From an uncultured Flaviramulus sp. (GTDB lineage Bacteria; Bacteroidota; Bacteroidia; Flavobacteriales; Flavobacteriaceae), in assembly GCA_947501105.1 (NCBI GenBank), contig CANMUP010000003.1, positions 310,001 to 374,000 on the forward strand: a stretch of DNA of 64,000 nt, in the 5' to 3' direction. A program made the position numbers and the translations under genes. The notes below the pieces were generated by a model. That model did no database searches. It was not told the origin of the DNA and was given only the letters and a program-made list of their open reading frames with translations. Shown here in pieces: positions 28,074-45,151 of the stretch. How positions within the stretch are numbered: position 1 is the first letter of the stretch; each line of letters starts with the position of its first letter.

Positions 28074-28093
28074 AAATTGTATAAATTGCTTTT

Positions 28094-28585: not shown

Positions 28586-28732
28586 AAGTTTTAAGTTTTT
28601 GTTTAATTTTTTAGACACTATGTATATAAATACGTCACTTTTTGTAATTCAGATTAGTTTTTACAAAAATAACGCCAAAATTGTATTTATATTTAACTTC
28701 TTTTTAGTTTTAAAAAAAATATTTAAGAATAA

Positions 28733-31654
28733 ATGAGCTTAATACCACATTTACAAGCTTTAAAAGAAAACCTTTCTGGAGAGTTTTTTTATGATGATTT
28801 AATAAAATCCATATACGCTACCGATGCTTCTGTTTACAGAATGTTACCCTTGGCAGTCGCGTATCCAAAAAACAATGCAGATATAAAGCAACTTATTGAG
28901 TTTGCAAAAAAGTATAGTACATCATTAATTCCTAGAACAGCAGGTACATCGCTTGCAGGACAATGTGTTGGTAGTGGTATTGTGGTTGATGTTTCAAAGC
29001 ATTTTACAAAAATTTTAAATGTTGACGAAAAAAAGCAAACAGTAACAGTACAACCTGGAGTTGTTAGAGATCAATTGAACAACTACTTAAAACCTTTCGG
29101 TTTGTTTTTTGGTCCCAATACATCAACCTCAAATAGATGTATGATTGGTGGTATGGTTGGTAATAATTCTTCAGGTACGACTTCAATTCAATACGGCGTT
29201 ACACGAGATAAAGTAATAGAATTGCATACTATTTTAAGTGACGGTAACGAGGTGGTCTTTGGTGAAGTGTCTTCAGATGAATTTAAAAAGAAGGCAGATA
29301 ATGATTCATTAGAAGGGCATATTTATAACACTATTTACTCTGAACTTATTTATGACTCTGTTCAAAAAAATGTAAAAGAAAATTTTCCTAAACCAGAAAT
29401 ACACCGTCGCAACACGGGTTATGCTGTTGATGAGTTATTAAAATCTAATATATTTTCTGATGTTTCTGATAACTTTAATATGTGTAAACTACTTTCTGGT
29501 AGTGAAGGTACGTTGGCATTTACAACTCAAATTACTTTAAAACTAGATAAGTTACCACCTCAAGAAAGTATTATGGTTGCAGCGCATTTTAATAGTATTG
29601 AAAACTGCCTAAATACTGTTGAGTTGGTAATGAAACACAATTTGTTTACCTGTGAAATGATGGATAAAACCATTTTAGATTGCACCAAACAAAATAAAAC
29701 CCAAGAAGTAAACAGACAATTTTTAGTGGGAGATCCTACGGCTATTTTAATGTGTGAGGTAAAAGCCAATACCCTTGAAGATGTAAAAGGTAAAGCCGAT
29801 GAACTTGTTAAAGCTATTAAGGAAACCAATTTAAGTTATGCATACCCAATGCTTATTGGTGATAATATTAGTAAGGCAAACAACTTGCGTAGTGCAGGTT
29901 TGGGCTTGCTAGGAAATATTATTGGCGATAAAAAAGCAGTGGCGTGTATTGAAGATACGGCGGTGGTTTTAGAGGATTTAGCAAGCTATATAGCAGAGTT
30001 TACAAGTTTAATGAAAAGCTATAAGCAAGATGCAGTGTATTATGCTCATGCAGGAGCAGGAGAAATTCATTTGCGCCCTATTTTAAATTTAAAGAAGCAA
30101 GAAGATGTTGTTTTATTTAGAAAGATAACTACGGATGTTGCGCATTTAGTAAAAAAATATAAAGGCTCGATGAGTGGTGAACATGGCGATGGCATTGTAC
30201 GGGCTGAATTTATTCCGTTAATGATTGGTAAAGAAAATTATGAGATATTAAAACGCATAAAAACTGCCTTTGATGCTGATAATATATTTAATCCAGGAAA
30301 AATAGTTGATGCATATTCGATGGATGAGTCGTTGCGTTATGTTCCAGATAGAGAAGAGTCACAAGTTGAAACACTCTTAGATTTTTCAAAATCTCAAGGC
30401 ATTCTTCGTGAAGCCGAAAAATGTAATGGTTCTGGAGATTGCAGAAAGTTGCCAGAATTTGGAGGAACTATGTGCCCCAGTTATAGAGCGACTAGAAATG
30501 AAAAAGACACTACAAGAGCACGCGCGAATGCATTACGGGAGTTTTTAACCAATTCAGATAAAAAAAATAAGTTCAACCATACAGAGCTTAGAGACGTATT
30601 CGATTTATGTTTAAGCTGTAAAGCCTGCGCAAGTGAATGCCCAAGTAGTGTAGATGTAGCGAGTTTAAAAGCAGAGTTTCAATATCAATATCAAAAGGAG
30701 AATGGTGTATCGTTACGGACTAAATTGTTTGCCTATAATAACAAATTAAATAGTATTGGAAGTCGAGTTCCTAAGCTGACGAATTTTGTTTTTTCTAACG
30801 GATTTACATCTACATTATTAAAGAAAAGCTTTGGTGTTGCAAAAGAAAGAAGCTTGCCTTTGATGTCAAATAAAAGTTTAGATAAAGTATTTCAAAGAAT
30901 TAATAAACAAGAAGTTATAAATAATAAAAATAAAACTATTTATTTTTTCAATGATGAGTTTACTAACCATTTAGATGCTTCTATCGGGCTTGATGCTATT
31001 CAACTTTTAACGGCTTTAAATTACGAAGTAAAGTTGGTTGATAATGCCGAATCTGGTCGTTCGTTTTTATCAAAAGGATTATTAGAGCAAGCAAAAGAAT
31101 TGGCTAATAAAAACGTATCTATTTTTAAGAATAAGGTTTCAGGCGACACGCCACTCATCGGAATTGAACCGTCAGCTATCTTAACTTTTAAAGATGAATA
31201 TTTAAAATTAGCAGACGATAAAGCTTCCGCGGAAGCGATTGCAAAACACACGTTTTTAATTGAAGAATTTATTCAAAAAGAGATAGAGTTGGGTAATATT
31301 AAGCCTGAGCAATTCACTTTAGAAGAAAAAACTATAAAATTTCATGGCCATTGTCATCAAAAAGCAATGCGTAATCAATTATCTAGTTTTTCAGTTTTAA
31401 ATCTGCCTAAAAACTATAAAGTAACAATTATTCCAAGTGGTTGCTGTGGTATGGCAGGGAGTTTTGGTTACGAGAAAGAGCATTACGAGGTTAGTATGCA
31501 AATAGGTGAGCAAACGTTATTTCCAGCCATTAGAAAAGCTTCTGATGATGTTGTTATATCTGCAAATGGAACAAGTTGCAGGCATCAAATTAAAGATGGC
31601 ACGCAGCGAGAGGCAAAGCATCCTATTACTATTTTAAAAGAAGCTCTTGTTTAG
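28733..31654 (+). CDS. FAD-linked oxidoreductase fused to Fe-S and CCG domains (D-lactate/glycolate dehydrogenase type)
   Basis: 973 residues. An FAD-binding type-4 (PCMH) domain (about 20-250) contains PRTAGTSLAGQCVG and PNTSTSNRCMIGGMVGNNSSG. The FAD-oxidase C-terminal domain reaches about residue 535. A ferredoxin-type region follows (CNGSGDCRK...CP, then CLSCKACASECP with Cys626, 629, 632, 636), and finally a CCG-type region (GHCHQKAM, SGCCGMAGSFGYE). It corresponds to GlcD plus GlpC-like subunits in one chain, as in D-lactate dehydrogenases (Dld-II/YdiJ type) that feed electrons to the respiratory chain. The 2-hydroxyacid substrate cannot be fixed from sequence. Confidence 0.92.
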   Translation: MSLIPHLQALKENLSGEFFYDDLIKSIYATDASVYRMLPLAVAYPKNNADIKQLIEFAKKYSTSLIPRTAGTSLAGQCVGSGIVVDVSKHFTKILNVDEKKQTVTVQPGVVRDQLNNYLKPFGLFFGPNTSTSNRCMIGGMVGNNSSGTTSIQYGVTRDKVIELHTILSDGNEVVFGEVSSDEFKKKADNDSLEGHIYNTIYSELIYDSVQKNVKENFPKPEIHRRNTGYAVDELLKSNIFSDVSDNFNMCKLLSGSEGTLAFTTQITLKLDKLPPQESIMVAAHFNSIENCLNTVELVMKHNLFTCEMMDKTILDCTKQNKTQEVNRQFLVGDPTAILMCEVKANTLEDVKGKADELVKAIKETNLSYAYPMLIGDNISKANNLRSAGLGLLGNIIGDKKAVACIEDTAVVLEDLASYIAEFTSLMKSYKQDAVYYAHAGAGEIHLRPILNLKKQEDVVLFRKITTDVAHLVKKYKGSMSGEHGDGIVRAEFIPLMIGKENYEILKRIKTAFDADNIFNPGKIVDAYSMDESLRYVPDREESQVETLLDFSKSQGILREAEKCNGSGDCRKLPEFGGTMCPSYRATRNEKDTTRARANALREFLTNSDKKNKFNHTELRDVFDLCLSCKACASECPSSVDVASLKAEFQYQYQKENGVSLRTKLFAYNNKLNSIGSRVPKLTNFVFSNGFTSTLLKKSFGVAKERSLPLMSNKSLDKVFQRINKQEVINNKNKTIYFFNDEFTNHLDASIGLDAIQLLTALNYEVKLVDNAESGRSFLSKGLLEQAKELANKNVSIFKNKVSGDTPLIGIEPSAILTFKDEYLKLADDKASAEAIAKHTFLIEEFIQKEIELGNIKPEQFTLEEKTIKFHGHCHQKAMRNQLSSFSVLNLPKNYKVTIIPSGCCGMAGSFGYEKEHYEVSMQIGEQTLFPAIRKASDDVVISANGTSCRHQIKDGTQREAKHPITILKEALV

Positions 31655-31714
31655 TAGTTTGTGTTTTATTCAATAAAAATGTTGGTTCAATCAATTTTTA
31701 GTAGAAAATTTTAG

Positions 31715-31772
31715 AGAGAAATTATAAGTTGTAAAATCGTGCTTTTTTGAGCTTTACAATTTTTGTTTCTCT
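31715..31772 (+). other. Long imperfect hairpin in the aroC leader
   Basis: Nested complementary blocks: AGAGAAA (31715-31721) with TTTCTCT (31766-31772), TTGTAAA (31729-31735) with TTTACAA (31753-31759), and GCT (31741-31743) with AGC (31750-31752). A short palindrome ATCAAA-A-TTTGAT (31793-31805) ends 2 bases before the aroC ATG. It could be a terminator for the upstream gene (the internal T-run is in the loop) or a leader structure. Confidence 0.45.
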
Positions 31773-31807
31773 AAGAATAGATTTACTTTAGCATCAAAAT
31801 TTGATTT

Positions 31808-32869
31808 ATGGCAGGTAATTCTTTCGGAAAACTATTTAATCTTACTACTTATGGCGAATCTCATGGACCAGCTTTAGGTGGAGTTATAGACGGTTGTCCG
31901 TCTGGAATTGAATTAGATTTAGATGCTATACAAAATGAACTGGATAGACGTAAACCTGGACAATCTGCTATTGTTACACAACGAAAAGAACCAGACACAG
32001 TTAAATTTCATTCAGGTATTTTTGAAGGGAAAACAACAGGAACTTCTATTGGTTTTGTTATAGAAAATACCAATCAAAAATCTCACGATTACACTCATAT
32101 AAAAGATAGTTACAGACCAAGTCATGCCGATTATGTTTACGACAAAAAATATGGTTTTAGAGATTACCGTGGTGGCGGACGAAGCTCTGCAAGAGAAACC
32201 GCATGTCGTGTCGTTGCAGGTGCGATTGCAAAGCAGATGCTAAAAAACATCGAGATTACCGCTTATGTTTCTGCTGTTGGAACCATGAAACTTGATAAGC
32301 CTTATACCGAATTAGATTTAACAAAAACTGAGTCTAATATCGTTCGCTGTCCAGACGAAACTATGGCTTCAAACATGGAAAACTATATTAAAGAGGTGCG
32401 AAGTAAAGGCGATACCGTTGGTGGTATTGTAAGTTGTGTTATTAAAAACGTACCAGTAGGTTTGGGCGAACCTGTGTTCGATAAATTACATGCAGAACTT
32501 GGTAAAGCTATGCTTTCAATAAACGCAGTAAAGGGTTTTGAGTACGGTAGCGGATTCCACGGGAGCACTATGTATGGTAGCGATCATAACGATGCTTTTA
32601 ATAACGATGGAACCACAAAAACCAATTTTTCAGGAGGTGTTCAAGGTGGTATAAGCAATGGCATGGATATTTATTTTAATGTGGCATTTAAGCCAGTGGC
32701 TACACTTATTCAGAAATACGAAACCATAGATAAATCAGGGAATACAGTCGAAATGCAAGGTAAAGGGCGTCACGATCCCTGTGTAGTGCCGAGAGCGGTT
32801 CCTATTGTAGAAGCTATGGCAGCGTTGGTTTTAGCTGATTTCCATCTATTAAATAAACTTTATAATTAG
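31808..32869 (+). CDS. aroC: Chorismate synthase
   Basis: 353 residues, normal length. Makes chorismate from 5-enolpyruvylshikimate 3-phosphate using reduced FMN, the last shikimate-pathway step. Family signatures visible: [18 protein letters not shown] near the N-terminus, [34 protein letters not shown] and, near the C-terminus, [14 protein letters not shown]. It stands alone with no other aro genes near. A decayed REP-like region follows it. Confidence 0.97.
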
Positions 32870-33202
32870 AAGCTATTTCCCGCTTTCCGTTATATCTTTC
32901 TTGTGCTGAACTTGTTTCAGTATCTCATAAAGCAAGTTGCAAACATTATAAGTTTATTTTTTATTAAGTATATCGTTTGGCACAAAAAAGAATGCCACTT
33001 CAATCGGGGCTAAATTATCTGCTATGTTTTTTGTTAAATCACGAATTTGTTACGCCAAATAAGGCAAGAGCATCAATTAAATACAATATTATATTCTCTC
33101 ATTCCTTTTGGTTTTCAATTAGATATGCAAAAAAGTATTCTAACTTGATTGAAACTAAAAAATACTTATCTTGTTCTCCACTTAAATACACTAACATAGC
33201 AC
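32870..33202. other. 333-bp gene-free gap with repeat remnants
   Basis: The only long non-coding stretch in the window. Its first 140 bases hold a split copy of the REP-like element (see 32876-33013). The rest is AT-rich sequence in which I see no RNA gene, terminator or convincing promoter box, although the promoter of the symporter gene presumably lies here. Confidence 0.6.
32876..33013. repeat. Decayed, interrupted copy of the REP-like element
   Basis: CGCTTTCCGTTATATCTTT (32881-32899) matches the left part of the 19658 element, and GAATGCCACTTCAATC (32990-33005) matches its right part, GGATGCCGCTGCAATC. Between them is extra sequence including the hairpin CTGAA-CTTGT-TTCAG (32906-32920), which I recall as a frequent short dispersed repeat in flavobacteria. 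The element therefore appears to have been interrupted or expanded and then mutated. Confidence 0.55.
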
Positions 33203-34528
33203 ATGAAAAAACTAGCACTACATTGGAAAATTATTATAGGAATGGTTTTAGGAATCATTTTTGGTTTTATTATGAATACTGTAGATGGAGGAAAAGGTAT
33301 TGTAACTGATTGGATAGCACCTTTCGGAACCATTTTTATTAACCTTTTAAAACTCATTGCAGTGCCTTTAATTTTGGCTTCTTTAATTAAAGGAATATCT
33401 GATTTAAAAGACATTTCTAAAATAAAATCAATGGGTTTACGCACTATAGGTATTTATGTTGCAACTACTTTAGTAGCTATTGTTATTGGTTTAAGTATTG
33501 TAAATGTGGTTAAACCAGGAAATGGTATGCCACAAGACACTATTGAGAAAATTAAGTTAAAGTACGAAAATGACGCAGGTGTAACCGATAAGTTGATGAA
33601 AGCCTCGGCTCAAAAAGATGCTGGCCCGTTACAAGCATTGGTAGATATTTTTCCAAGTAATATATTTACATCTTTAGGTGAAGCAAAAATGCTTCAAATT
33701 ATATTCTTTGCTCTATTTGTTGGTATTTGTTTGCTGCTAATTGGAGAGAAAAAGGCAAAGCCTTTAGTTAAGTTTTTTGACTCGCTTAACGAGGTGGTCA
33801 TGAAAATGGTTGATTTGATTATGCTGTTTGCGCCTTATGCAGTTTTTGCTCTGTTAGCTAATGTTATTATTGCTTTCGATGATGTAGAAATTTTAATAAA
33901 ATTATTGTATTACGCCTTTTGTGTTGTTGGCGGTCTTATTTTAATGATTGGGTTTTACCTTATTTTAGTTAGTGTTTATACAAAAAAATCACCTATGTGG
34001 TTTTTAAAACAAATAAGCCCAGCACAACTATTAGCCTTTTCAACGAGTAGTAGTGCAGCGACATTGCCTGTTACTATGGAGCGTGTTGAAGAGCACATAG
34101 GTGTAGATAAAGAAGTGTCTGGTTTTGTATTACCTGTTGGGGCAACTGTAAATATGGATGGTACCAGTTTGTATCAAGGTATAGCAGCTGTGTTTATTAT
34201 GCAAGTTATTTGGCCAGAAGGCTTAACTTTTACAAATCAGTTAGTCATTGTTGCTACCGCATTATTGGCTTCTATCGGTAGTGCTGCCGTACCAAGTGCT
34301 GGTATGGTTATGTTGGTTATTGTGTTAGAATCTATTGGGTTTCCATCTGAATTATTGCCAATAGGATTAGCTCTTATTTTTGCGGTAGATAGACCTTTAG
34401 ATATGTGTAGAACGGTAGTAAATGTAACAGGAGATGCAACGGTTTCTATGATTGTTGCTAAATCTTTAAATAAACTACATGATCCGAAGCCTAAAGAATG
34501 GGATGACCATTACGACGAAGTAAAATAA
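33203..34528 (+). CDS. Dicarboxylate/amino acid:cation symporter (DAACS family)
   Basis: 441 residues with about eight transmembrane helices plus re-entrant loops, as in GltP/DctA/GltPh. Core motifs: serine-rich STSSSAATLPVT, NMDGTSLYQ, and the final GDATVSMIVAK segment. It imports glutamate, aspartate or C4-dicarboxylates with H+ or Na+. An extra roughly 25-residue segment near residues 105-130 precedes the third helix. It lies 37 bases before the ATP-grasp gene, so it may be co-transcribed with the 34566-38472 cluster and could supply its substrate, which is inference. Confidence 0.93.
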   Translation: MKKLALHWKIIIGMVLGIIFGFIMNTVDGGKGIVTDWIAPFGTIFINLLKLIAVPLILASLIKGISDLKDISKIKSMGLRTIGIYVATTLVAIVIGLSIVNVVKPGNGMPQDTIEKIKLKYENDAGVTDKLMKASAQKDAGPLQALVDIFPSNIFTSLGEAKMLQIIFFALFVGICLLLIGEKKAKPLVKFFDSLNEVVMKMVDLIMLFAPYAVFALLANVIIAFDDVEILIKLLYYAFCVVGGLILMIGFYLILVSVYTKKSPMWFLKQISPAQLLAFSTSSSAATLPVTMERVEEHIGVDKEVSGFVLPVGATVNMDGTSLYQGIAAVFIMQVIWPEGLTFTNQLVIVATALLASIGSAAVPSAGMVMLVIVLESIGFPSELLPIGLALIFAVDRPLDMCRTVVNVTGDATVSMIVAKSLNKLHDPKPKEWDDHYDEVK

Positions 34529-34565
34529 TTTTTTTAAATTTAAATAATCTTCAATTTATTGAATT

Positions 34566-35603
34566 ATGAATGTTTGTTTTATAATGTATCCATGGGATGA
34601 GATAGACCCTGAAAATGATACAAGTTTAGCATTAATAAAAGAATGTGTTAAGAGGAAACATGGTGTTGCTATGTGTACACCTGCAAACTTAACTATTCGT
34701 AATAGTGTAACAACTGCCAACTGTACCGTTATTGGTAGAATGGAGAAAACTCCAGGCTCACTTAAATCATTTTATAATAAAGCCGAATTGCGAGAAGAGA
34801 TGTTACCACTTGCTGGGTTTGATGTGATTTTCTTTAGAGCAAATCCACCTTTAGATCCTATTATGCTTAATTTTTTAGATTCGGTTAAGGACGATGTTTT
34901 TATCATGAATTCCTTGGAAGGTATGCGAGAAGCTAACAATAAATTATACACGGCTGCTTTTGGTGATGCACACAGTAACATTATTCCAGCAACCCATGTT
35001 TCAAAAAGTAAGAACTATTTAATCAAGCAAATTAAAGAGTCCAGCGCAGATAAAATGATTCTGAAACCACTTAATGGTTTTGGGGGTTCTGGCGTTATTC
35101 TTATTGAAAAATCAGCAATGAGTAATATTAATTCTTTATTAGATTTTTATATAACAAGTGGAGACGGCTCTTCAAATTATGTTATTCTTCAGGACTATAT
35201 CGAAGGTGCTGATGAAGGCGATGTTCGAATTTTAATTTTAAATGGTGAGCCAGTTGGAGCTATGAAACGTGTTCCTGGAAAAGAAGACCATCGTTCAAAC
35301 GTTTCTGCAGGAGGTAGTGTTCAAAAGCACACTTTAACTAAAACCGAAAAAGCACTTTGTAAACAAATAGGACCTAAGTTAGTAAACGACGGACTCTACT
35401 TTGTAGGTATTGATGTTATAGGAGGAAAATTAGTAGAAGTTAACGTTATGTCTCCAGGTGGAATAACATATATAAATAAAGTTTATAAGTTAAAAACTAA
35501 AGTTGAAGAAAAAGTAATTGACTTTTTAGAAATGAAAGTTTTAGATAAACTTCAAGCTTTTGATAGACGTACACGATTAAGAAAAACAGTTCAAGACGCC
35601 TAA
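34566..35603 (+). CDS. GshB-like ATP-grasp ligase (glutathione-synthetase family)
   Basis: 345 residues. It aligns along its length with bacterial GshB from memory: an N-terminal FIMYPWDEIDPENDTSLALI, a RANPPLD motif where GshB has RKDPPFD, the ATP-grasp lid/lysine KPLNGFGGSGV, and Mg-binding EVNVMSPGG where GshB has EINVTSPTC. ATP-grasp enzymes form amide bonds through acyl phosphates. The organism carries bshA and no gshA is in the window, and the changed PGG tail suggests a different acceptor from gamma-glutamylcysteine, although this is unproven. It heads a four-gene run with a rhodanese, an amidohydrolase and a DUF1704 peptidase. Two bases before its ATG a small hairpin (34550-34563) occurs. 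Confidence 0.88.
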   Translation: MNVCFIMYPWDEIDPENDTSLALIKECVKRKHGVAMCTPANLTIRNSVTTANCTVIGRMEKTPGSLKSFYNKAELREEMLPLAGFDVIFFRANPPLDPIMLNFLDSVKDDVFIMNSLEGMREANNKLYTAAFGDAHSNIIPATHVSKSKNYLIKQIKESSADKMILKPLNGFGGSGVILIEKSAMSNINSLLDFYITSGDGSSNYVILQDYIEGADEGDVRILILNGEPVGAMKRVPGKEDHRSNVSAGGSVQKHTLTKTEKALCKQIGPKLVNDGLYFVGIDVIGGKLVEVNVMSPGGITYINKVYKLKTKVEEKVIDFLEMKVLDKLQAFDRRTRLRKTVQDA

Positions 35604-35650
35604 TTTAAGTCAATAGCATTCAGTATCAGTAATCAGTAAATAGGTTTTTA

Positions 35651-36475
35651 ATGAATTCTGAAATATCAATTCCTCAACACGTCGTATCAGCAAAATGGCT
35701 TCATGACAATATGAATGCCGAAAATTTAGTGGTTTTAGATGGAACTATAAACAAGGTCTTTGATATGCCTACAACTCAAATCCCTAGATCTTGTTTTTTC
35801 GATATAAAAAAGAAATTTAGCGATATCTCTAATCCATTTCCAAATGCATTTCCTTCTGCTGAACACTTTCAAAGCGAAGCAAGAAATCTTGGTATTAATA
35901 CTAATAGCGCCATTGTAGTTTACGACGATAAAGGAATATATTCTAGCGCACGTGTTTGGTGGTTATTTAAAGCTTTTGGATACAACAATGTAGCAGTTTT
36001 AGATGGAGGGCTCCCTGCTTGGTTAAAGGCGGAGTGTCCTATTGAATCTAATATAAATCATGTAAATAAAACGGGTGATTTTGTAGCTAAACTTCAACCT
36101 AGGTTTATGCAGTTTTTTGATAATTTAATTAATGCTTCAAATGATAAAACACATGAAATAATTGATGCGCGTTCAGCTGACCGATTTAATTGTGTAGTAG
36201 ATGAACCAAGAGCAGGATTGAGAAGTGGTACTATTCCTAATTCTAAAAATATTCCTTTTACAAACCTTTTAAATGATGGCCATTTATTGAAATCGAAAGA
36301 AGAATTAAATGATATTTTTTCTGAAGTTATAAGTAAGAATGATGAAGTCATTTTTTCCTGTGGCTCTGGTATTACGGCTTGTATTTTAGCTTTGGGTGCA
36401 GAAATTTCTGGATATCAAAATATTTCAGTTTACGATGGATCTTGGACAGAATGGGGAAGTTTAGTTAAAGAATAA
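35651..36475 (+). CDS. Two-domain rhodanese-type sulfurtransferase (SseA-like)
   Basis: 274 residues with an inactive N-terminal rhodanese domain and an active C-terminal one whose catalytic loop is CGSGITA with Cys237. The CGSG(I/V)T loop is typical of 3-mercaptopyruvate sulfurtransferases rather than thiosulfate rhodaneses (CRKGVT). The N-terminal RSCFFDIKKKFSDISNPFPN is also SseA-like. It moves a sulfane sulfur to a thiol acceptor in the cytoplasm. It lies between a GshB-like ligase (47 bases upstream) and an amidohydrolase (2 bases downstream), and so may act on the thiol made or processed by the cluster. Confidence 0.93.
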   Translation: MNSEISIPQHVVSAKWLHDNMNAENLVVLDGTINKVFDMPTTQIPRSCFFDIKKKFSDISNPFPNAFPSAEHFQSEARNLGINTNSAIVVYDDKGIYSSARVWWLFKAFGYNNVAVLDGGLPAWLKAECPIESNINHVNKTGDFVAKLQPRFMQFFDNLINASNDKTHEIIDARSADRFNCVVDEPRAGLRSGTIPNSKNIPFTNLLNDGHLLKSKEELNDIFSEVISKNDEVIFSCGSGITACILALGAEISGYQNISVYDGSWTEWGSLVKE

Positions 36476-36477
36476 CC

Positions 36478-37308
36478 ATGGAAAAACTTTCTATAAAAGA
36501 TATAATTAGTAAAATTTGTACAGAAGAAACTTTTGAAGCCGTCTCTTCAGATTATTCATTCACCATAAAAATTGATGAGTATGTTCCGTATGCTTGCGCT
36601 GCGATACATGATGGACACCAATTTAGAAAAGAGTTATGGGAGAATTGTATTCATACAGAATACGAGCGTTGGTATGAGGAAGACCCAGAAACAAGAAATA
36701 TGATTAAATCGCACCCAATAGTTATTGCTGGTTGCGATTCGCGTTTTGAATATGATTTAAATAGAGACCCGCAAAACGCTGTTTTTGATACCGCATGGGG
36801 AAAACAATTATGGAATGAGCCGCTTTCAGAAGAAATGAAAGATAAAAGTTTGAGAAAGCATACCAATTTTTATAAAGTAGTACACACTTTGGTAAACAAA
36901 TTGGAATCTAAATTTGGGTTTTGTTCTATTTACGACATGCACAGTTATAACTGGAAGCGATGGGATAGAGAAGTGCCTACTTGGAATTTAGGAACTAGTA
37001 ATGTTGATAATGATCGTTTTGGAGATGTTATTGAAAGTTGGAGACAAAGCCTTTCAGAAATTAAACTTCCAAATAGTATAAAGTCTACATCTAAAATTAA
37101 TGATACTTTTCAAGGTAACGGATATTTTTTAAAATATATTACAAATAACTTTAAGAATACCTTAGTTTTGGCAACCGAAATAGCCAAGGTATATTGTGAT
37201 GAATATGAGCGAATTATTTACCCAGAGGTTGTGAAGACTGTTGAAAAAGAATTGATTACCAGAATACCACAGCATGCTTTAAGTGTGTATAATGCCTTTA
37301 AAAGTTAG
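36478..37308 (+). CDS. N-formylglutamate amidohydrolase family protein
   Basis: 276 residues of the FGase (HutG2-like) family, which contains zinc hydrolases cleaving N-acyl or peptide-type amide bonds of acidic amino acids. Family features: an AIHDGHQFR-like His motif near residue 43, an R/D motif around IVIAGCDSRFEYDLNRDP, and FCSIYDMHSYN with a further His. No other hut genes are nearby, so a role in histidine degradation is not indicated. It starts 2 bases after the rhodanese stop and ends 3 bases before the DUF1704 gene, so it belongs to that operon. Confidence 0.88.
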   Translation: MEKLSIKDIISKICTEETFEAVSSDYSFTIKIDEYVPYACAAIHDGHQFRKELWENCIHTEYERWYEEDPETRNMIKSHPIVIAGCDSRFEYDLNRDPQNAVFDTAWGKQLWNEPLSEEMKDKSLRKHTNFYKVVHTLVNKLESKFGFCSIYDMHSYNWKRWDREVPTWNLGTSNVDNDRFGDVIESWRQSLSEIKLPNSIKSTSKINDTFQGNGYFLKYITNNFKNTLVLATEIAKVYCDEYERIIYPEVVKTVEKELITRIPQHALSVYNAFKS

Positions 37309-37311
37309 AAA

Positions 37312-38472
37312 ATGAAGATTGATATTAATGTAGGCTCTAAAGCCCTTTTAGATATAGATAAACGCATAGACGAACTTGTTAAGCAAATAGAATTACTTAG
37401 CTATGTAAATCCTACAAATATAGAAGAAGAAAAGCATAAGTTTTATGCTTCAAAATATTTAGAAGATCCTCTTTTTAAGTATCCTGAAATTAATTTTGAT
37501 AAGTTTAAATTGCATCGAGAGTTATTTACGATGCCTTTGGAACTTATTGAAGATGACGAAATACGAGATTTTTACGAAACTATTATTTATACATATTCTG
37601 GTTTAATTCAGTGCATAGAAACTATTGGTAGTGGTAAACAGTTTTATTATAATAGCTTACATTGTTTTGGAACACCTACAGAGCAAGATGTTGAAAACGC
37701 GAAATTCATACTTCATTTTGATGATGAAAATAAAAACAGTGATACTTTTTTGCCAAAGCATAGCGCTATTGAAGCAGAAGATTTTTTCCGAAAATTTTCA
37801 AAGAAATATGATTTTACATATTCCATAAAACATTCTGATAAACTTTCAGCAATTGCCATGGTTTTAAATAATGTTAAGACCTTAGTTTTAAACAGTAACC
37901 ATACGTTTTCAGATAATGAAATTGCGGTGCTAACTAATCATGAAATTGGAGTGCACATGGTAACAACAATGAATGGCTTGTTGCATCCTTTAAAAATATT
38001 TTCTCATGGATTCCCTAATAATGAAGAAACTCAAGAAGGGCTAGCTGTTTTTGCTGAGTATATGAGTAATAATTTAACCGTAACTCGTTTAAAAGAACTA
38101 GCTTATCGAGTTATTGCAGTTGACAGTTTGGCAAAAGGGTATTCGTTTTCAAGAACATTTAGATTGCTTCATAATCAATATGATTTGGATCGTGAAGAAT
38201 CATATTATATTACAGTTAGAGCGCATCGTGGCGGCGGATTCACAAAAGATTATTTGTATTTGACAGGGTTAAAAAAGGTATATGATTATTATCATGAGGG
38301 TAAGGATTTAAACTTACTTTTAACAGGGAAAGTGACCTTAGAGTATGCTAATCAAATAGAAACTTTGATAAAAAAAGGTTTAGCGGTTCCAGCAAGACAT
38401 ATCACTGACGCTTATACAGAAAATAGTAATGCTAATAAAACTGTAGATTTTATTCTTAAAAATTTAAAGTAA
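37312..38472 (+). CDS. DUF1704 / QEGLA-motif putative metallo-carboxypeptidase
   Basis: 386 residues, annotated in databases as flavohemoglobin expression-modulating QEGLA motif protein (DUF1704). The gluzincin-type site is clear: HEIGVH (His210, Glu211, His215) and QEGLA (241-245), whose Glu242 is the likely third zinc ligand. Eukaryotic members of this family (MATCAP) are tyrosine carboxypeptidases, so the bacterial protein is probably a carboxypeptidase-like hydrolase. The historic label rests on a regulatory effect and says little about mechanism. It is the last gene of the ATP-grasp cluster and its stop lies 4 bases from the convergent gene. Confidence 0.9.
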   Translation: MKIDINVGSKALLDIDKRIDELVKQIELLSYVNPTNIEEEKHKFYASKYLEDPLFKYPEINFDKFKLHRELFTMPLELIEDDEIRDFYETIIYTYSGLIQCIETIGSGKQFYYNSLHCFGTPTEQDVENAKFILHFDDENKNSDTFLPKHSAIEAEDFFRKFSKKYDFTYSIKHSDKLSAIAMVLNNVKTLVLNSNHTFSDNEIAVLTNHEIGVHMVTTMNGLLHPLKIFSHGFPNNEETQEGLAVFAEYMSNNLTVTRLKELAYRVIAVDSLAKGYSFSRTFRLLHNQYDLDREESYYITVRAHRGGGFTKDYLYLTGLKKVYDYYHEGKDLNLLLTGKVTLEYANQIETLIKKGLAVPARHITDAYTENSNANKTVDFILKNLK

Positions 38473-38476
38473 GCAA

Positions 38477-39676
38477 TCAATCTGTTTCTAGGTCTTCTAA
38501 TGCTTCACAATCTTTAATGTAAATTAATATATCATACTTTAACACGAGGGTTTCCATTTCTTTTGATAACTTATGAGTTATCGATCTTAAGGGAACCGTG
38601 TTTATTATTAAATATTTCTCTTTTAAACCTTCAATATTTTCAAGAACTTCTTTTGGCAAATCTTTTGTATTATCAAAAGGAACTACAGATACTGGTGCAA
38701 ATGGATTTCCCATATTTTTCATACCATTAATTCCAGTAGCATAGATATGCAATGATTTTTTACCATTAATAATTGCTAATTCTGATATCATATTGGAGAT
38801 ATCAAAAACATTAGTATTATTCAGCCCCTTTTTTACATGGTTAGCCCCTAACTTAAACAATACTTTTGGTGTTTTTTTATTTAGAGTAGCTTCTTTATAG
38901 TAATTTAAAAAATTATTCTTCATTAGTTTAGCTCTCTCGTTGTTATTTAAATAATAACGTTTCTGGAAATTATGGAGATAAATTTCTTTAGTAGCCTTTA
39001 AGCTTATTAGAATGGCTTTTTCTTCTTCTGTATGGCAAAGCGCTAATAGTTCTTTATGTAACTCATCAGAATATTTAAAAATGTAAGGCGCCATGTAATT
39101 CTTTTCTTCAACCGCAGTTTTATAATTGTTTTTTGCTTCAATCAATAAAGGTTCTATAGCCTTTTTTAATTGTTTATTAGAAGTGTTTTTTAAGAGATAA
39201 TCAAAAATTAATCTAAATTCTACCATAAAAACTTGGTCTATACCCCATATTTTTCCTTTGTGATTAATTATATTTTCAAAAAGCTTAATATCATTTCTAT
39301 TATTATAGAAAGGAATGGTATAAGGATATTCTTGATATAATTCACTAAGCGCTTTTTTAGGGTTCTTGGATTTAGAAAAAATGGTTTCTATAGTTTTTGC
39401 GGCTATAGGATCAGTTTCTATACAAAGCGTATTGTATCCATATTCTAAACCAATATTATAAAGCTCATTAGTAATTTCTCCAACTTCTTTAATGCCATGT
39501 TGTTCTCCTAACATTATAAATTGGGAACCTTCAATTTTGTTCTTTAAGAATGTTTGCAGCTTTTCTGATGATAATTTGGTTACTGTGAATGAATTATCTT
39601 TTAAGATATTGCTTTGTGCGACTAAATTATTTAGAGTTAACGTAAAATAGATTATTACTATTATCTTAGTTTTCAT
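38477..39676 (-). CDS. Secreted erythromycin-esterase/ChaN-like protein
   Basis: 399 residues from the ATG of MKTKIIVIIYFTLTLNNLVAQ, which gives a good signal peptide; a start 12 codons earlier is open but unlikely. The mature part begins FIMLGEQHGIKEVGE, followed by LCIETDP, KIWGIDQ and LFKLGANHVKKG, the pattern of Glu/His motifs of the EreA/ChaN/TraB superfamily. Members include esterases, haem-binding ChaN and metalloproteases; the exact activity is unknown. It lies 25 bases downstream of a second protein of the same superfamily, suggesting a functional pair outside the inner membrane. Confidence 0.75.
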   Translation of the reverse strand: MKTKIIVIIYFTLTLNNLVAQSNILKDNSFTVTKLSSEKLQTFLKNKIEGSQFIMLGEQHGIKEVGEITNELYNIGLEYGYNTLCIETDPIAAKTIETIFSKSKNPKKALSELYQEYPYTIPFYNNRNDIKLFENIINHKGKIWGIDQVFMVEFRLIFDYLLKNTSNKQLKKAIEPLLIEAKNNYKTAVEEKNYMAPYIFKYSDELHKELLALCHTEEEKAILISLKATKEIYLHNFQKRYYLNNNERAKLMKNNFLNYYKEATLNKKTPKVLFKLGANHVKKGLNNTNVFDISNMISELAIINGKKSLHIYATGINGMKNMGNPFAPVSVVPFDNTKDLPKEVLENIEGLKEKYLIINTVPLRSITHKLSKEMETLVLKYDILIYIKDCEALEDLETD

Positions 39677-39701
39677 CTTGTTGGTTTTTAAGTTCTTTTT
39701 T

Positions 39702-40580
39702 TTACTCTTCAATTAAATTTTCAAAGTTTTTTAAATTGAAATCTACAGATGCATTTGCTAAATAATGGAGTATTGATAAATGGCCAGCCCCAATTAAAAC
39801 AAACACTTTGTCTTCTCCTGGTGTATTTATGTTTAAAATGTTTTGAAATATCCTTAGGTTTCTACTATACCACCATATTGAGTTGTCTGCTCCGAAGTAA
39901 TCATCTTTTTCCGAGTCACCCATTTTAAATTCACCCATTAAATAATGACCATGGTTGTGATTAACAACATCTGGATCGTTCATAATTTTAAAATAGTCTA
40001 TAAGTGGAATTTCGGTTTTTAACTTATCTCCTTTTTCGTATAAACCAAAATAGGTCTCATTTATTTGCATTTCTCTATTAACCTTTTCTTGACCAGCTTT
40101 TATGTAAAAACTGTTTTGTTTTTCTTTATACTCTTCTTTTGATAAATCATTTTTAAAACCCCTTGATGGAGCATCTACGGCATATATTTTTTTATGTCCA
40201 AGTATTTTTGCTAATTGAAAAGCAATTTGGTAAGTTTCATTCGATTTTAATTTAAATTCACCTCTTAAATAAGCATTATATACAGAGTCTAGTTTTATTT
40301 GATTACTTGCTTTCCATTCCACTGCAATCTTTGTAGGTGCAAATTTTTTAATTACACCTAATAATTCATTTAATTCTTGTTGTTTTTTCTCAGAAAATAT
40401 ATCAATACTGAATTTTGGCTTGTAAGTATCTAACTGCGGGTTTGCAAAATGAAAAGATCCTAAGATTAATAAATCAGATGATTTAATATTTTTAAAATGC
40501 TCTTCTATTTGTGCTTTTTGAGCAAATAGAGAAACTGCCAGTAATATAAACGCAAGTAATGATATGGTTTTAGGTTTCAT
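39702..40580 (-). CDS. Secreted DUF5694 (TraB/TIKI-like) protein
   Basis: 292 residues with a signal peptide ending at VSLFAQ (about residue 21). The motifs LLILGSFHFANPQLD, KIAVEWKAS, YAVDAPSRG and IGAGHLSILHYL are those of DUF5694, a family related to the TraB/TIKI and EreA/ChaN fold in which the first GxxH and later conserved Glu/His residues form the active or metal site. Function unknown. It is the first gene of a two-gene minus-strand unit and is divergent from the LytS-type kinase at 40787, whose regulator may control it. Confidence 0.8.
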   Translation of the reverse strand: MKPKTISLLAFILLAVSLFAQKAQIEEHFKNIKSSDLLILGSFHFANPQLDTYKPKFSIDIFSEKKQQELNELLGVIKKFAPTKIAVEWKASNQIKLDSVYNAYLRGEFKLKSNETYQIAFQLAKILGHKKIYAVDAPSRGFKNDLSKEEYKEKQNSFYIKAGQEKVNREMQINETYFGLYEKGDKLKTEIPLIDYFKIMNDPDVVNHNHGHYLMGEFKMGDSEKDDYFGADNSIWWYSRNLRIFQNILNINTPGEDKVFVLIGAGHLSILHYLANASVDFNLKNFENLIEE

Positions 40581-40786
40581 AGATTTATTTTTTAATTTAC
40601 ACTTCGAAAATACTTATACATATTTACGCTAAAATTAAAATTCCATATAAACCTATTTTTATTGTATTAACTATGCTAAACGTTACATCATTTGTTTCGT
40701 TTTGTGTTTTAACCTGTTTGTCCTAAAAAAACTTAGTGATAAATTAAAACGAAAAGGAGATTGAGATTAATCGTTACATTTGATGT

Positions 40787-41833
40787 ATGAGATTAAAACG
40801 TACTTTTAAATATCATTTTCTCCTTGGGGTTGTTATTATAGGAATGAGCCTGTTTGATAGTTATATTAGAATGGGACCTGAAAAGCTTTACGAAAGACTT
40901 TTCCCTTTAGGCATAATATATTTGTTTACATTTAATATTACATTTTTTTGTGTGTATGCAATTAATTATAAAATAATTTGTCCTAATACATTGCCTAAGA
41001 AGAATGTGCTGCTTTTTATTTTAGGGCAAATTTCTCTTTTTTTCATATTTGCAGGAGTTCGTTATTTTTTTGAAGAAATATTAGTGTATTCAATTGGCGG
41101 ATTTCATAATTATTCAGATAGAACAAGAGTGTTTTGGTTTTATATTTTTGATAACTCTTATTATGCCTTAAAAGCTATTTTGTTTAGTACATTTATGTAT
41201 TTTCTTTTTATGTATTTAAAAAGTAGTTCAACAATACACCAGTTGCAATTGGAGCAACAAAAAGCGAAATTAGATGCTTTGAAAACGCAATTAGAGCCCC
41301 ATTTTCTATTTAACACCTTAAATGTGTTTTATTCAGAATTAGCTGATAAGCAACCAGAAACAGCGAAAGGAATTCATAAATTGTCTGAACTTTTGAGATA
41401 CCTTACCTATGATGCTCAAAAAGATTTTATGCCATTAAAAAAGGAGTTAAAATTTATAGAGGACTATGTTTATTTTTATAAAAAACGTTTTGAAAATAAC
41501 TTATTCTTAAATTTTTCTATTAATGGAGATATTAAGCAGCAAGAAATACCATCTTTAATCCTTATTCATTTTATAGAGAATATTTTTAAACACGGTATTA
41601 CTAATGATTCATCTATTCCAGCAGAAATATCTATAAAAATTAATGACAATAGCCTAGAATTAATGACGAAAAATAAAATTTCTAACGTAAAGAACTACAG
41701 TATCACAGGCATTGGAAGAGAAAATTTAAATAAACGATTGCAATTATTATTTAATGATAATTATACATTTAATCACAAAGAGTCTAATAATACTTATTCT
41801 ACTTATTTAAAAATTCCATTAAAAAACAATTAA
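40787..41833 (+). CDS. LytS-type sensor histidine kinase
   Basis: 348 residues: four transmembrane helices (about residues 10-25, 40-60, 75-95 and 120-145), a short coiled coil and a His_kinase (PF06580) domain with LKTQLEPHFLFNTLNVF, phospho-acceptor His172, then a degenerate HATPase domain with FIENIFKHGI and GIGRENLNKRL. This is the LytS/YehU class that pairs with LytTR regulators. The cognate regulator starts 2 bases after its stop. No extracellular sensor domain is present, so sensing is probably within the membrane. Confidence 0.93.
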   Translation: MRLKRTFKYHFLLGVVIIGMSLFDSYIRMGPEKLYERLFPLGIIYLFTFNITFFCVYAINYKIICPNTLPKKNVLLFILGQISLFFIFAGVRYFFEEILVYSIGGFHNYSDRTRVFWFYIFDNSYYALKAILFSTFMYFLFMYLKSSSTIHQLQLEQQKAKLDALKTQLEPHFLFNTLNVFYSELADKQPETAKGIHKLSELLRYLTYDAQKDFMPLKKELKFIEDYVYFYKKRFENNLFLNFSINGDIKQQEIPSLILIHFIENIFKHGITNDSSIPAEISIKINDNSLELMTKNKISNVKNYSITGIGRENLNKRLQLLFNDNYTFNHKESNNTYSTYLKIPLKNN

Positions 41834-41835
41834 TT

Positions 41836-42543
41836 ATGAAAACTTTAAATTGTTTAATTGTTGATGATGAAGCCCCTGCTGTTAGGCTATTAGAATCATA
41901 TGTAAGCAAGGTTCCTTTTTTAAAATTAGTGGCCTCTACTACAAACCCTATTGAAGCTTTAAGTATTATTGAGAAAGAAAGGTTAGATATCATCTTTTTA
42001 GATATACAAATGCCAACTATTACTGGTATACAATTATCTAAAATTATAAAAGGTAAAGTGCATGTTATTTTTACAACAGCATATCCGCAATTTGCATTAG
42101 AAAGCTATGAATTAAATGCCGTAGACTATTTACTAAAACCTTTTGAGTTTGAGCGTTTTTATAATGCTGTTTTAAAGATCAAATATAAGGATGCTCCAAG
42201 TAATCAAACAGCTTTTAACAATTTTATTTTTATAAAAACAGACGGAAAAAACAACTTTGAAAAAGTTAGTTTAAAAGATATTTTATATATAGAAAGTTTA
42301 AAAAACTATGTCTCTATACATCTTACAGACAAACAAATCATTACCTATAGTACTTTGAAGTATTTTGAAACAGAATTACCAAAAAATAAGTTTATTAAAA
42401 TTCATAAATCTTATGTTGTCTCTATTCAAAATATCATTAAAACTGATACTTTAAGTGTTTATATTTCTAATGGCAATAATTTGCCGATTGGTGATACTTA
42501 CAAGAAACAATTTTTTGAGGCAATTAATAAGTTAATGTTATAG
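41836..42543 (+). CDS. LytTR-family response regulator
   Basis: 235 residues. Receiver domain (1-120) with the acidic pair DDE at 10-12, phospho-acceptor Asp56 in IIFLDIQMP, and Lys near 106 (YLLKPFEFERF). The C-terminal LytTR DNA-binding domain (about 135-233) shows ILYIESLKNYVSIHLTD and FIKIHKSYVVSIQNI. It binds direct repeats upstream of target genes. It is coupled to the LytS-type kinase. The nearest plausible target is the divergent DUF5694/EreA-like unit, but I saw no clear LytTR direct repeat. Confidence 0.94.
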   Translation: MKTLNCLIVDDEAPAVRLLESYVSKVPFLKLVASTTNPIEALSIIEKERLDIIFLDIQMPTITGIQLSKIIKGKVHVIFTTAYPQFALESYELNAVDYLLKPFEFERFYNAVLKIKYKDAPSNQTAFNNFIFIKTDGKNNFEKVSLKDILYIESLKNYVSIHLTDKQIITYSTLKYFETELPKNKFIKIHKSYVVSIQNIIKTDTLSVYISNGNNLPIGDTYKKQFFEAINKLML

Positions 42544-42549
42544 CTTTAC

Positions 42550-42969
42550 TTATTCTAGAAACTTACTTTTCAATTCAGGAGTAGGAATCATACAAGCATC
42601 TTTTTTGCCATACCATTTGTAACGGTTTTTTGCAATATAATTATAAACCCAATTTCTAATGAAGGTTGGGATAATAAAAAAAATATTCATTAAGTTTTGT
42701 GGAAACCCTAGTTGTGATGCAATTTTTAATGCTGCAGTACTTTTATAATCAATGCCTTTTTCTGGAGTGTAGAGCAAAATAGAATCTATTTTTGAAGTAT
42801 CTATTTTGAATTCTTCTATTACCTCTTTACCAATATTGCTTTGCAAAGCTGTAAACATAAAAATATTCTTTTTATCCTGCTTTATTACGTATCGTACAGT
42901 GGTATTGCACAGATTGCAAACACCATCAAAAAGGATTAATTTTTTGTCTTTTGGAAGCTCAAAATTCAT
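42550..42969 (-). CDS. Thiol-disulfide oxidoreductase of the DCC family (DUF393)
   Basis: 139 residues. The family motif DGVCNLC (residues 15-21) gives the D-x-x-C-x-x-C of DCC proteins, predicted thioredoxin-like redox enzymes. Further conserved blocks are DSILLYTPEKG and the C-terminal YNYIAKNRYKWYGKKDAC. Partners and substrates are unknown. It lies 16 bases downstream of the MutS2-like gene and its stop is 6 bases from the stop of the convergent LytTR regulator gene. Confidence 0.9.
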   Translation of the reverse strand: MNFELPKDKKLILFDGVCNLCNTTVRYVIKQDKKNIFMFTALQSNIGKEVIEEFKIDTSKIDSILLYTPEKGIDYKSTAALKIASQLGFPQNLMNIFFIIPTFIRNWVYNYIAKNRYKWYGKKDACMIPTPELKSKFLE

Positions 42970-42985
42970 ACTACAAAGTTACAGC

Positions 42986-45151
42986 TTATTTGGCGGCTTC
43001 AACCAATTCTAATTGTTCTAAACTTACATTAGTAGTAAATAAGCCGTAGTTAACTATGGCTTTATTTTTTTCAATCTTGTCAATGCTACCAATAGCTCTT
43101 CCATCCTCCATGCGAACACGATCTCCAATTTTTAAAACAGGCTTTGGTTTAGGAGCTTCAATAGCTTTTTTCTTAGCTGCTTTTTTCTTTTTCCGAATAA
43201 CTTCAACTTTCTTTTCGGCTTCCTGTTTTACTTGTTTTTCTTTGGCTTTTATTACTTTTTTCTGTTTTACAGAAACTTTTTTGCGTTTAGAATTTTCTAT
43301 TTGAACCAATTTAAAAAGCTCATCCATTAAGCTCTTTTTTTGCTTATTTTCAAAATATTTTTCGGCAATATCGTTTACTTTTTGCCCTAAATATATTAAG
43401 CGCTGATTACTATCGTACAATTCTTGATAGCTTTCTAGTTTTTTTTGAATTTTCGCATTAATTTCTTCAAGTTTATCGGCTTCTTCAAGTTTTTTCTTCT
43501 CATTAAACATTAAAGATTGTCCAGTTTTTTCAAGTTTAGAACGTTCTTTTTGAAGCTTAGCTATGGTAGCATCAAAACGTACTTTACTACGCTCTATCTT
43601 CTTTTTGGATCGGTTTATTAAACTATACGGAATACCGTTTTTCTGAGCAACCTCAAAAGTAAAGCTACTTCCTGCTTGCCCGATAACCAATTTAAAAAGA
43701 GGCTCTAACGTACGCTCATCAAAAAGCATATTAGCATTAAGCATATGTGGTAACTCGTTTGCTAATATTTTTAAATTAGAATAGTGTGTTGTTATTATTC
43801 CAAAAGCTTCACGATGATAAAACTCCTCTAAAAACGTTTCTGCCAAAGCACCACCAAGTTCAGGGTCACTACCCGTACCAAATTCATCAATTAAAAAAAG
43901 TGTATTCTTATTGCACTTCTTTAAAAAATAATTCATTTGTTTTAAGCGATAGCTATAGGTGCTTAAATGATTTTCTATAGATTGATTGTCACCAATATCA
44001 CTTAAAACTCTATCAAACAAACACGCTTTACTACGCTCATGTACAGGAATTAGCATGCCGCTTTGTAGCATGACCTGTAATAAACCAACTGTTTTTAGTG
44101 TAATACTTTTTCCGCCTGCATTAGGACCAGAGATAACAATAATTCTGCTGTCTTGCTTTAATTCGATAGTCTGAGGAAATGTCTTTTCTTTCTTCTCTAA
44201 ATTATTCAAATAGAGTAGTGGATGGTATGCATCACGAAGATGTATGTTTCTGTCTTCCGAAATTTCTGGAAGAATACCATTCATAGATTTTGCATATTTC
44301 GCTTTCGCGGAAATAACATCTATATCAATTAAAAATGCTTGGTATTGTTCTAATAATGGTAAAAACGGACGAATATAATTTGTAACATCTTTTAAAATCC
44401 GAACTACTTCTTCTTGTTCCTCGTATTCTAAATTATTAAGTTCTCGCGAAAATTGGAGTGTGGTTTCTGGTTCAATATAAACAATACTTCCAGTTTTGCT
44501 TCCCCCCATAATGGCGCCTTTAACTTTACGACGATACATGGCTTTAACTGCTAATACCCGTTTATTATCCACTACAGACTCTCTAATATCATCTAAATAT
44601 TCAAGATTGTGGTAAGTGTTTAGAGCAGACGAAAAACTAGCGTTTATTTTTCCCTTTATGCGGTTTATAGATTGACGTAAATCAAAAAGAAGAGATGATG
44701 CATTATCTTTAATATCTCCAAACCGATCTACAATGGCATCAACCTTTTCTATAATTACTTTTGTAACTTCTATACGAGAGGCATATTCATTTAAGGTTGG
44801 GTAATATTCTTCAAACTTTTTTAAATAGGTAACAATCTCATTAGAGGTTAACGAAATTGACACTATTTTTTTTAAACCATGTACTTCAAGGTATGTGTTT
44901 TCAATGCGTAAAAGTTTAATTTCTTTTGCAATTGTATCAAATCCATGATTTGGAATACGGTTATCGTTATAAAAAGAAGATAAATATTCATTGGTTAATT
45001 GTAACGCAATATGGAGCTCTTCTTTTTTCTTGTATGGTAAAATTTTAAGCGCTTTATCATTCCCCAATGGTGTTACGCAATGTTCGCTAACATGTTGTAA
45101 AACAGTAGGGAATTCTAAATCTTGTAATGTCTTTTCGTGAATGTGTATCAT
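42986..45151 (-). CDS. mutS2: MutS2-like DNA-binding ATPase without Smr nuclease domain
   Basis: 721 residues with a MutS core and ABC-type ATPase: Walker A SGPNAGGKS (341-349), LFDRVLSDIGDNQSIENHLS and Walker B LFLIDEFGTGSDP. A long coiled coil (about 510-620) and a Lys/Ala-rich stretch (625-665) lead to a small KOW-like beta domain (RVRMEDGRAIGSIDKI) at the C-terminus. The Smr endonuclease domain that ends typical MutS2 (about 780 residues) is missing. MutS2 acts against recombination and in rescue of collided ribosomes, not in mismatch repair. Whether this shorter form cuts nucleic acid is doubtful. The DCC gene is downstream. Confidence 0.92.
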   Translation of the reverse strand: MIHIHEKTLQDLEFPTVLQHVSEHCVTPLGNDKALKILPYKKKEELHIALQLTNEYLSSFYNDNRIPNHGFDTIAKEIKLLRIENTYLEVHGLKKIVSISLTSNEIVTYLKKFEEYYPTLNEYASRIEVTKVIIEKVDAIVDRFGDIKDNASSLLFDLRQSINRIKGKINASFSSALNTYHNLEYLDDIRESVVDNKRVLAVKAMYRRKVKGAIMGGSKTGSIVYIEPETTLQFSRELNNLEYEEQEEVVRILKDVTNYIRPFLPLLEQYQAFLIDIDVISAKAKYAKSMNGILPEISEDRNIHLRDAYHPLLYLNNLEKKEKTFPQTIELKQDSRIIVISGPNAGGKSITLKTVGLLQVMLQSGMLIPVHERSKACLFDRVLSDIGDNQSIENHLSTYSYRLKQMNYFLKKCNKNTLFLIDEFGTGSDPELGGALAETFLEEFYHREAFGIITTHYSNLKILANELPHMLNANMLFDERTLEPLFKLVIGQAGSSFTFEVAQKNGIPYSLINRSKKKIERSKVRFDATIAKLQKERSKLEKTGQSLMFNEKKKLEEADKLEEINAKIQKKLESYQELYDSNQRLIYLGQKVNDIAEKYFENKQKKSLMDELFKLVQIENSKRKKVSVKQKKVIKAKEKQVKQEAEKKVEVIRKKKKAAKKKAIEAPKPKPVLKIGDRVRMEDGRAIGSIDKIEKNKAIVNYGLFTTNVSLEQLELVEAAK

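Follow-up and report, generated by a model that had tools for sequence, protein, structure and literature searches.

In the N-acetylaspartylglutamate (NAAG) cycle of the brain, an ATP-grasp synthetase (RIMKLA/B) is combined with glutamate carboxypeptidase II, which removes the terminal glutamate, and with aspartoacylase. LysX/LysK and BtrJ/BtrG are examples of a protect-process-release logic, and enzymes of the N-formylglutamate amidohydrolase (FGase) type act on small N-acyl amino acids. According to excerpts of PMC10499314, the human enzymes TMCP1/2 take off C-terminal glutamate and polyglutamate and run, together with TTLLs, a tail cycle on tubulin. A set of genes comparable to these systems is found in a stretch of DNA of 64,000 nucleotides (nt), called the window here, from an uncultured marine Flaviramulus sp. 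(GCA_947501105.1, contig CANMUP010000003.1, positions 310,001-374,000 of the forward strand). There, a GshB-like ATP-grasp ligase, an FGase-family amidohydrolase and a MATCAP metallocarboxypeptidase are encoded in one five-gene unit together with a symporter and a sulfurtransferase. The conserved core of this operon is three genes (ligase, FGase and MATCAP), not five. There is about an even chance that the ligase and the two amide-cutting enzymes produce and modify a single small amide or short peptide that contains an acidic amino acid.

The linkage of the three genes was read in a sample of 296 Bacteroidota genomes. MATCAP (PF08014) was found in 16 of them; 15 of these loci were read at 14.8-19 kb, and the sixteenth is the window. 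A ligase lies within four genes of MATCAP in 15 of the 16 loci, and FGase stands directly before MATCAP or is fused to it in 13. Seen from its own side, the ligase gave 17 matches of 167-191 bits in exactly the 15 cluster genomes, which cover six family codes; two stronger matches, near 230 bits, belong to canonical GshB proteins of genomes that lack MATCAP, with the next class at 97 bits. The FGase profile matched 15 of the 296 genomes, 13 of them with the complete triad, and the other two hold one strong lone match (G128) and one weak partial match (G196). Two clusters (L029 and L031), from genomes with no match to the FGase profile, carry an AstE/AspA-type deacylase beside the ligase in place of FGase, and, judged by gene content, the two enzymes appear to replace one another. 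The co-occurrence of the families, for which an earlier note on this DNA had proposed a gene-neighbourhood check, is strong on these counts and above what chance would give, and the view of the three enzymes as one unit is further supported by two FGase-MATCAP fusions, one in Bacteroidota (L021) and one in Photobacterium sp. GJ3 (L116).

In Flavobacteriaceae, the best 80 of at least 572 relatives were taken from a scan, and loci with less than 3.5 kb upstream (L060, L064, L065, L073 and L089) were kept in the counts. FGase is located immediately upstream of MATCAP in 76 of the 80 loci (median gap 7 nt, 76 pairs) and the ligase at most four genes away in 73 (median gap -8 nt, 40 directly neighbouring pairs). 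Counted by protein cluster, FGase, ligase, symporter and sulfurtransferase are present in 75, 72, 60 and 34 loci, and counted by position in 76, 73, 56 and 34; the two counts differ because of labelling, of the distance limits and of an FGase in L083 that is split. Of the seven loci in which the ligase was missed, L060 and L064 are truncated, L065 has its ligase on another contig, and L080, L102, L104 and L108 are without an operon-type ligase. The genomes of these last four, whose completeness is not stated, lack any match to FGase, and their ligase matches reach 101 bits at most, compared with 437 in the L065 genome. Two operons (L022 and L023) combine a window-type ligase and FGase with a long form of MATCAP and a second ligase of another type (type B, see below), so that the parts seem interchangeable. 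A 914-amino-acid (aa) open reading frame (ORF) in L030 was considered as a MATCAP-ligase fusion and rejected, as it contains only ATP-grasp and GSH-S Pfam domains and MATCAP lies in another frame.

The triad is also found in other phyla. The long form of MATCAP as a query matched 127 plasmid records, mostly from Rhizobiaceae, of which 15 were read. All 12 Rhizobiales plasmid loci read have the order FGase, long MATCAP, ligase, and in Photobacterium sp. GJ3 a ligase 58% identical to the window ligase is followed by the FGase-MATCAP fusion. Linkage persists while gene order and fusion state vary between lineages. On one Rhizobium plasmid (L156), all three triad genes are in pieces, which may be broken genes or sequencing errors.

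The window ligase lies above the Pfam cut-offs for both GSH-S_N and GSH-S_ATP and over the cut-off for PRK12458 (456 bits), and below that for TIGR01380 (232.1, cut-off 299.05). The best solved relative of its family profile is E. coli GshB (1gsa, E 5e-67), with a nearly full-length alignment. In a tree of 30 rows, of which 8 were of type A and 13 of type B, the operon ligases fall outside the canonical GshB clade (E. coli, G194 and G076; support 100/99). Type A ligases, including that of the window, form one clade (98/96) and type B ligases are likewise drawn together as a single clade (93/99); support for the branching order deeper in the tree is low (52/67). The earlier note had read PGG instead of PTC at the Mg-site tail, and the window protein does carry SPGG, starting at residue 296 in its C-terminal region; the motif [ST]PG[GA] is present in 21 of 21 operon ligases versus SPT[CG] in 3 of 3 canonical GshB proteins. 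The same SPG tail also occurs in E. coli RimK. By profile search, neither GCS2 (PF04107) nor gshA (PF04262) was detected in the Flaviramulus genome; GCS2 is missing from 10 of the 15 cluster genomes, this one included, and PF04262 from all 15. Both genomes with canonical GshB have two GCS2 matches each, one of them about 1.5 kb from gshB. Since the genome has neither gshA nor GCS2, and the ligase lies outside the GshB clade and has another tail motif, an ordinary glutathione pathway is unlikely on this sequence evidence, although gamma-Glu-Cys might still be obtained by uptake or in some other way. The argument of the earlier note against ordinary glutathione thus stands, and a gshA elsewhere in the genome, which that note had named as contrary evidence, was looked for and not found as PF04262.

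The model of the window FGase (predicted local distance difference test, pLDDT, 92.5) has the fold of N-formylglutamate amidohydrolase structures (2q7s, Z 24.1; 2odf, Z 21.4), with M14 carboxypeptidases (up to Z 12.4), AstE (Z 11.0) and poly-gamma-glutamate hydrolase (Z 10.6) as lower-ranked neighbours. These fold lists are a second comparison by VIA-align of Foldseek matches and cover those matches only. A sequence search of the PDB with the FGase profile gave nothing up to E 1, though the fold search found relatives, and the window protein had no match in NCBIfam up to E 0.001. H44, R89, D93, R96, D153, H155 and E234 are unchanged across 15 aligned FGases, and 65 of 75 proteins pass a strict form of the motif pattern; by eye, most of the ten misses deviate just at its last part. 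Family and model point to an FGase-family enzyme, for which hydrolysis of N-formylglutamate is a putative activity. In L083 (Patiriisocius), the FGase is split into one ORF of 133 aa and one of 127 aa, which might reflect a broken gene or a sequencing error.

Carboxypeptidase activity of the window MATCAP is predicted from family, residues and fold. The translated sequence contains H210-E211-IGV-H215 and E242 in QEGLA, and the model (pLDDT 90.4) matches human MATCAP (7z5g) with Z 25.1 and a root-mean-square deviation of 3.0 over 292 residues. Window-type and human MATCAP have the segments R-x-x-RG and KDxxYLxG in common at an identity of 23%. HExxxH and EGxA are kept in 80 of 80 Flavobacteriaceae relatives, and the score of the window protein against the NCBIfam QEGLA family TIGR02421 (315.2) is under the cut-off (338.65). 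The long form of MATCAP carries an N-domain of about 260 residues, which is FGase-like (hhalign 91.8%, E 7e-7; control profile comparisons of the same domain gave 0.1% with the ligase and 7.7% with MATCAP). In 11 of 11 cases this domain has lost the FGase motifs and is thus a degenerate FGase domain. From these sequences, we infer that the FGase fold pairs with MATCAP as an active fusion, as an active separate protein or as a dead domain beside an active one. Because the two are fused in some genomes, FGase and MATCAP probably act in one complex.

As a module that makes and edits a small amide or short peptide, the three enzymes would probably work in the cytoplasm, as no signal peptide was noticed by eye. 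The ligase, judged by its family and conserved residues, would activate a carboxylate to an acyl phosphate and then join an amino acid. MATCAP would trim the C-terminal residue of this putative product, and FGase, or the AstE/AspA-type enzyme in two genomes, would hydrolyse the N-acyl amide bond of an acidic residue. In Flavobacteriaceae, the Glu/Asp-type symporter may supply the amino acid, and the sulfurtransferase with a small helper domain would be an optional add-on. The module may be tied to salinity and to the glutamate pool.

A possible role at low salinity comes from Photobacterium damselae RM-71. Excerpts of an RNA-seq study (PMC10308900, Table 2) list A0J47_RS17020 ('Glutathione synthase GshB') as 38.42-fold and A0J47_RS17025 ('QEGLA motif protein') as 27.51-fold up in 1% versus 3% NaCl, and in these excerpts the former is treated as glutathione synthetase. 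From locus tags, names and the locus of strain GJ3, the pair can be inferred to be neighbours and members of a triad. As for separate transcripts, which the earlier note had named as evidence against one unit, the sole transcript data found are these, from another species, and they consist of the co-induction of the annotated ligase and peptidase genes. RimK is among the most induced genes of the same table (52.24-fold up at low salt), and its induction with 'GshB' and 'QEGLA' might tie ATP-grasp ligases to the osmotic glutamate pool.

Several points weigh against the proposal of a module for one small amide or peptide. A ligase and hydrolases acting on one bond would form a futile cycle, so that different bonds, times or molecules are needed, and the joint induction of ligase and hydrolase is not expected of a simple store-or-release switch. 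The salinity data stem from another species with gene identity given by annotation and locus-tag order, and FGase is not named in the main text of PMC10308900. MATCAP occurs without ligase and FGase in the Bacteroidota locus L017, in the four Flavobacteriaceae loci L080, L102, L104 and L108, and in Pseudoalteromonas and Aeromonas (L115 and L117), and thus can have another role. An operon-type FGase stands alone at L161 (G128, 7252-8058) with no MATCAP or ligase nearby. The swap of FGase for AstE/AspA stands on two cases, of which one is not co-directional, as the deacylase gene shares the strand of the ligase in L031 but runs opposite to it in L029. Concerning the ligase, the glutathione-synthase equivalog PRK05246 is passed narrowly (280.2, cut-off 272). 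Five of the 15 cluster genomes have a GCS2 match, each at a distance from the triad, which may keep the glutathione question alive in these five. PF04262 is likewise absent from both genomes with canonical GshB, so the absence of gshA by itself says little.

Among the alternatives, a protect-process-release pathway survives best, although it is unlikely. In such a pathway, the ligase would cap a precursor with an acidic amino acid, outside enzymes would modify it, and FGase and MATCAP would uncap it. Operons with a single ligase or with two (L022 and L023), two hydrolases differing in bond preference and the apparent exchange of FGase and AstE/AspA would be in line with this, but no processing enzyme is kept with the triad across families and the flanking genes vary.

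A writer-eraser cycle at the C-terminus of a protein or peptide, with the ligase extending an acidic tail by amino acids and MATCAP and FGase cutting them off again in the manner of TTL/TTLL ligases and MATCAP/CCP peptidases on tubulin, is quite unlikely. The bacterial MATCAP shares its fold and its active-site residues with the human detyrosinase, polyglutamate is also removed by human TMCP1/2 (excerpts of PMC10499314), the ligases share their SPG tail with E. coli RimK, and low salt induces RimK along with 'GshB' and 'QEGLA' (excerpts of PMC10308900). Against this, the operons read did not reveal any conserved gene for a substrate, FGase-type enzymes are known to act on small N-acyl amino acids, and the match of the ligase to the whole GshB N-domain suggests a small substrate. 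The further proposal that the operon is a salinity-responsive bacterial counterpart, perhaps even a source of parts, of the eukaryotic tubulin tyrosination/glutamylation cycle, run by an ATP-grasp ligase, MATCAP and an M14-like FGase, has only a small chance of being correct.

The genes might also share nothing but their regulation, with symporter, ligase and peptidases serving to scavenge acidic amino acids without a common substrate. Of the four genomes from which ligase and FGase were lost, three (L102, L104 and L108; Arenibacter, Muricauda and Maribacter) still have MATCAP, with its active-site motifs, immediately after the symporter, as would be expected in this case. However, FGase-MATCAP fusions occur in two phyla, ligase and FGase are lost jointly, and the linkage survives changes in gene order, which makes this explanation just as doubtful as the cycle on a protein tail. 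Finally, it is very improbable that the annotation is right and the unit is a glutathione or gamma-glutamylcysteine pathway that imports gamma-Glu-Cys as its precursor and uses the hydrolases for salvage: the scores for PRK12458 and PRK05246, the relationship to 1gsa, the five genomes with GCS2 and the sulfurtransferase of the window operon speak for it, but they are opposed by the missing GCS2 and PF04262, by the GCS2 next to gshB in both canonical genomes, by the clade and tail motif of the ligase and by the presence of bshA.

The remaining two genes of the operon are add-ons of Flavobacteriaceae within the sample read. Aspartate and glutamate carriers are the nearest solved structures to the symporter (first 'Aspartate transporter' 9bgz, with a score of 308 bits; D-M-x-R-T and NVTGD align); the symporter is present in 7 of the 16 Bacteroidota MATCAP loci, all from the same family, and at most five genes from MATCAP in 56 of the 80 Flavobacteriaceae loci. 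The sulfurtransferase matches 3-mercaptopyruvate sulfurtransferase 3olh (189.7 bits) and stays under the cut-off of the PRK11493 equivalog (216.8, cut-off 250). It was found in 3 of 16 Bacteroidota loci and at most four genes away in 34 of 80 Flavobacteriaceae loci. Eight sulfurtransferases (L033, L036, L037, L039-L042 and L061) are longer, with 384-397 aa. The additional segment, in the seven of these with reported matches, corresponds to a roughly 108-aa protein, which is encoded by its own gene between sulfurtransferase and FGase in twelve other loci (L046 and 11 more) and has Pfam matches all below cut-off.

The five genes are on one strand with intergenic gaps of 37, 47, 2 and 3 nt, and the 3' end of the unit is 4 nt before a convergent gene (Table 1). 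For much of what the earlier note had reported, the ORF coordinates, Pfam scores and translations agree: the arrangement of five genes with gaps of 2-47 nt, all five family assignments, Cys237 of the sulfurtransferase, His210, Glu211, His215 and Glu242 of MATCAP, and a bshA within the window (25733-26869; 567.6 bits, cut-off 273.7). Its operon of five parts holds for the unit of ligase, FGase and MATCAP and is not supported for the rhodanese-type sulfurtransferase and the symporter as core parts. The symporter was thought to feed in an acidic amino acid, which is consistent with its nearest solved relatives, but it is not a core gene. A sulfur-loading rhodanese at the core does not agree with the counts given above, and, with rhodanese and symporter both outside the core, the proposed thiol cycle is poorly supported.

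Two convergent genes on the minus strand follow the operon (38477-40580). One encodes a DUF5694 protein that weakly matches TraB, the other a 411-aa protein with no Pfam match; both are seldom near the triad in the 80 Flavobacteriaceae loci. The promoter pattern TTTG-N-TANNTTTG has 10 matches in the window versus 7.65 expected and none in the gap ahead of the operon. A role in anti-phage defence was considered and rejected, as PADLOC gave no match up to E 0.01 for the four operon proteins other than the symporter.

Table 1. Coordinates of the operon and of the region ahead of it in the window
Feature	Position	Strand	Evidence
SDF-family (DAACS) symporter, Asp/Glu predicted, accessory	33203..34528	+	PF00375 412.8 bits
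GshB-like ATP-grasp ligase, operon type A, core	34566..35603	+	GSH-S_ATP 185.2, GSH-S_N 81.7 bits
3-mercaptopyruvate-type sulfurtransferase, accessory	35651..36475	+	Rhodanese 97.9 bits; Cys237 in active-site loop CGSG
FGase-family amidohydrolase, core	36478..37308	+	PF05013 44.6 bits (cut-off 28.9)
MATCAP/DUF1704 gluzincin metallocarboxypeptidase, short form, core	37312..38472	+	PF08014 (formerly DUF1704) 326.6 bits
Gap ahead of operon, 333 nt, after aroC	32870..33202	.	ORF map
Flavo-1 RNA match in aroC-symporter gap	32872-33015	minus	Rfam RF01705 62.4 bits, gathering score 42; scan covered 28000-46000

Amidoligase-peptidase operons with ATP-grasp ligases beside peptidases, for which peptide metabolites were predicted, were reportedly surveyed by Iyer et al. 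in Mol BioSyst in 2009. The triad belongs to this known ligase-plus-peptidase kind of operon, and part of it may have been noticed in that survey; a description of the triad was not found in the open-access literature searched. Excerpts of a paper on graspetides (PMC8939145) do not mention FGase or MATCAP. In public annotation, the genes are named 'glutathione synthetase' or 'synthase', 'N-formylglutamate amidohydrolase' and 'flavohemoglobin expression-modulating QEGLA motif protein', and these names hide a single conserved module of Bacteroidota, Rhizobiales and one Photobacterium. Finding its product would assign a function to the MATCAP enzymes of bacteria, which are related to the human tubulin detyrosinase, and could bring to light a new small amide connected with acidic amino acids.

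Compared with the known systems, the operon ligase resembles E. coli GshB (1gsa) in both Pfam domains and in the near-full-length alignment and differs from canonical GshB in its tail motif and its place outside that clade. The window FGase is like N-formylglutamate amidohydrolase (2q7s, 2odf) in fold and has a family score over the cut-off, but it is without an NCBIfam match, lies beside a ligase and MATCAP, and has AstE/AspA in its place in two other genomes. With human MATCAP/TMCP, the window MATCAP shares fold, HExxxH, the EGLA glutamate and the two sequence segments described above. The human enzyme acts on the microtubule, whereas the bacterial one sits in an operon with ligase and FGase and, in its long form, carries the degenerate FGase domain. 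The NAAG set resembles the triad in having a ligase, a C-terminal carboxypeptidase and an N-acylaspartate deacylase, a likeness by logic and not by kinship. It uses another ligase subfamily and another carboxypeptidase family, and the triad is a bacterial operon.

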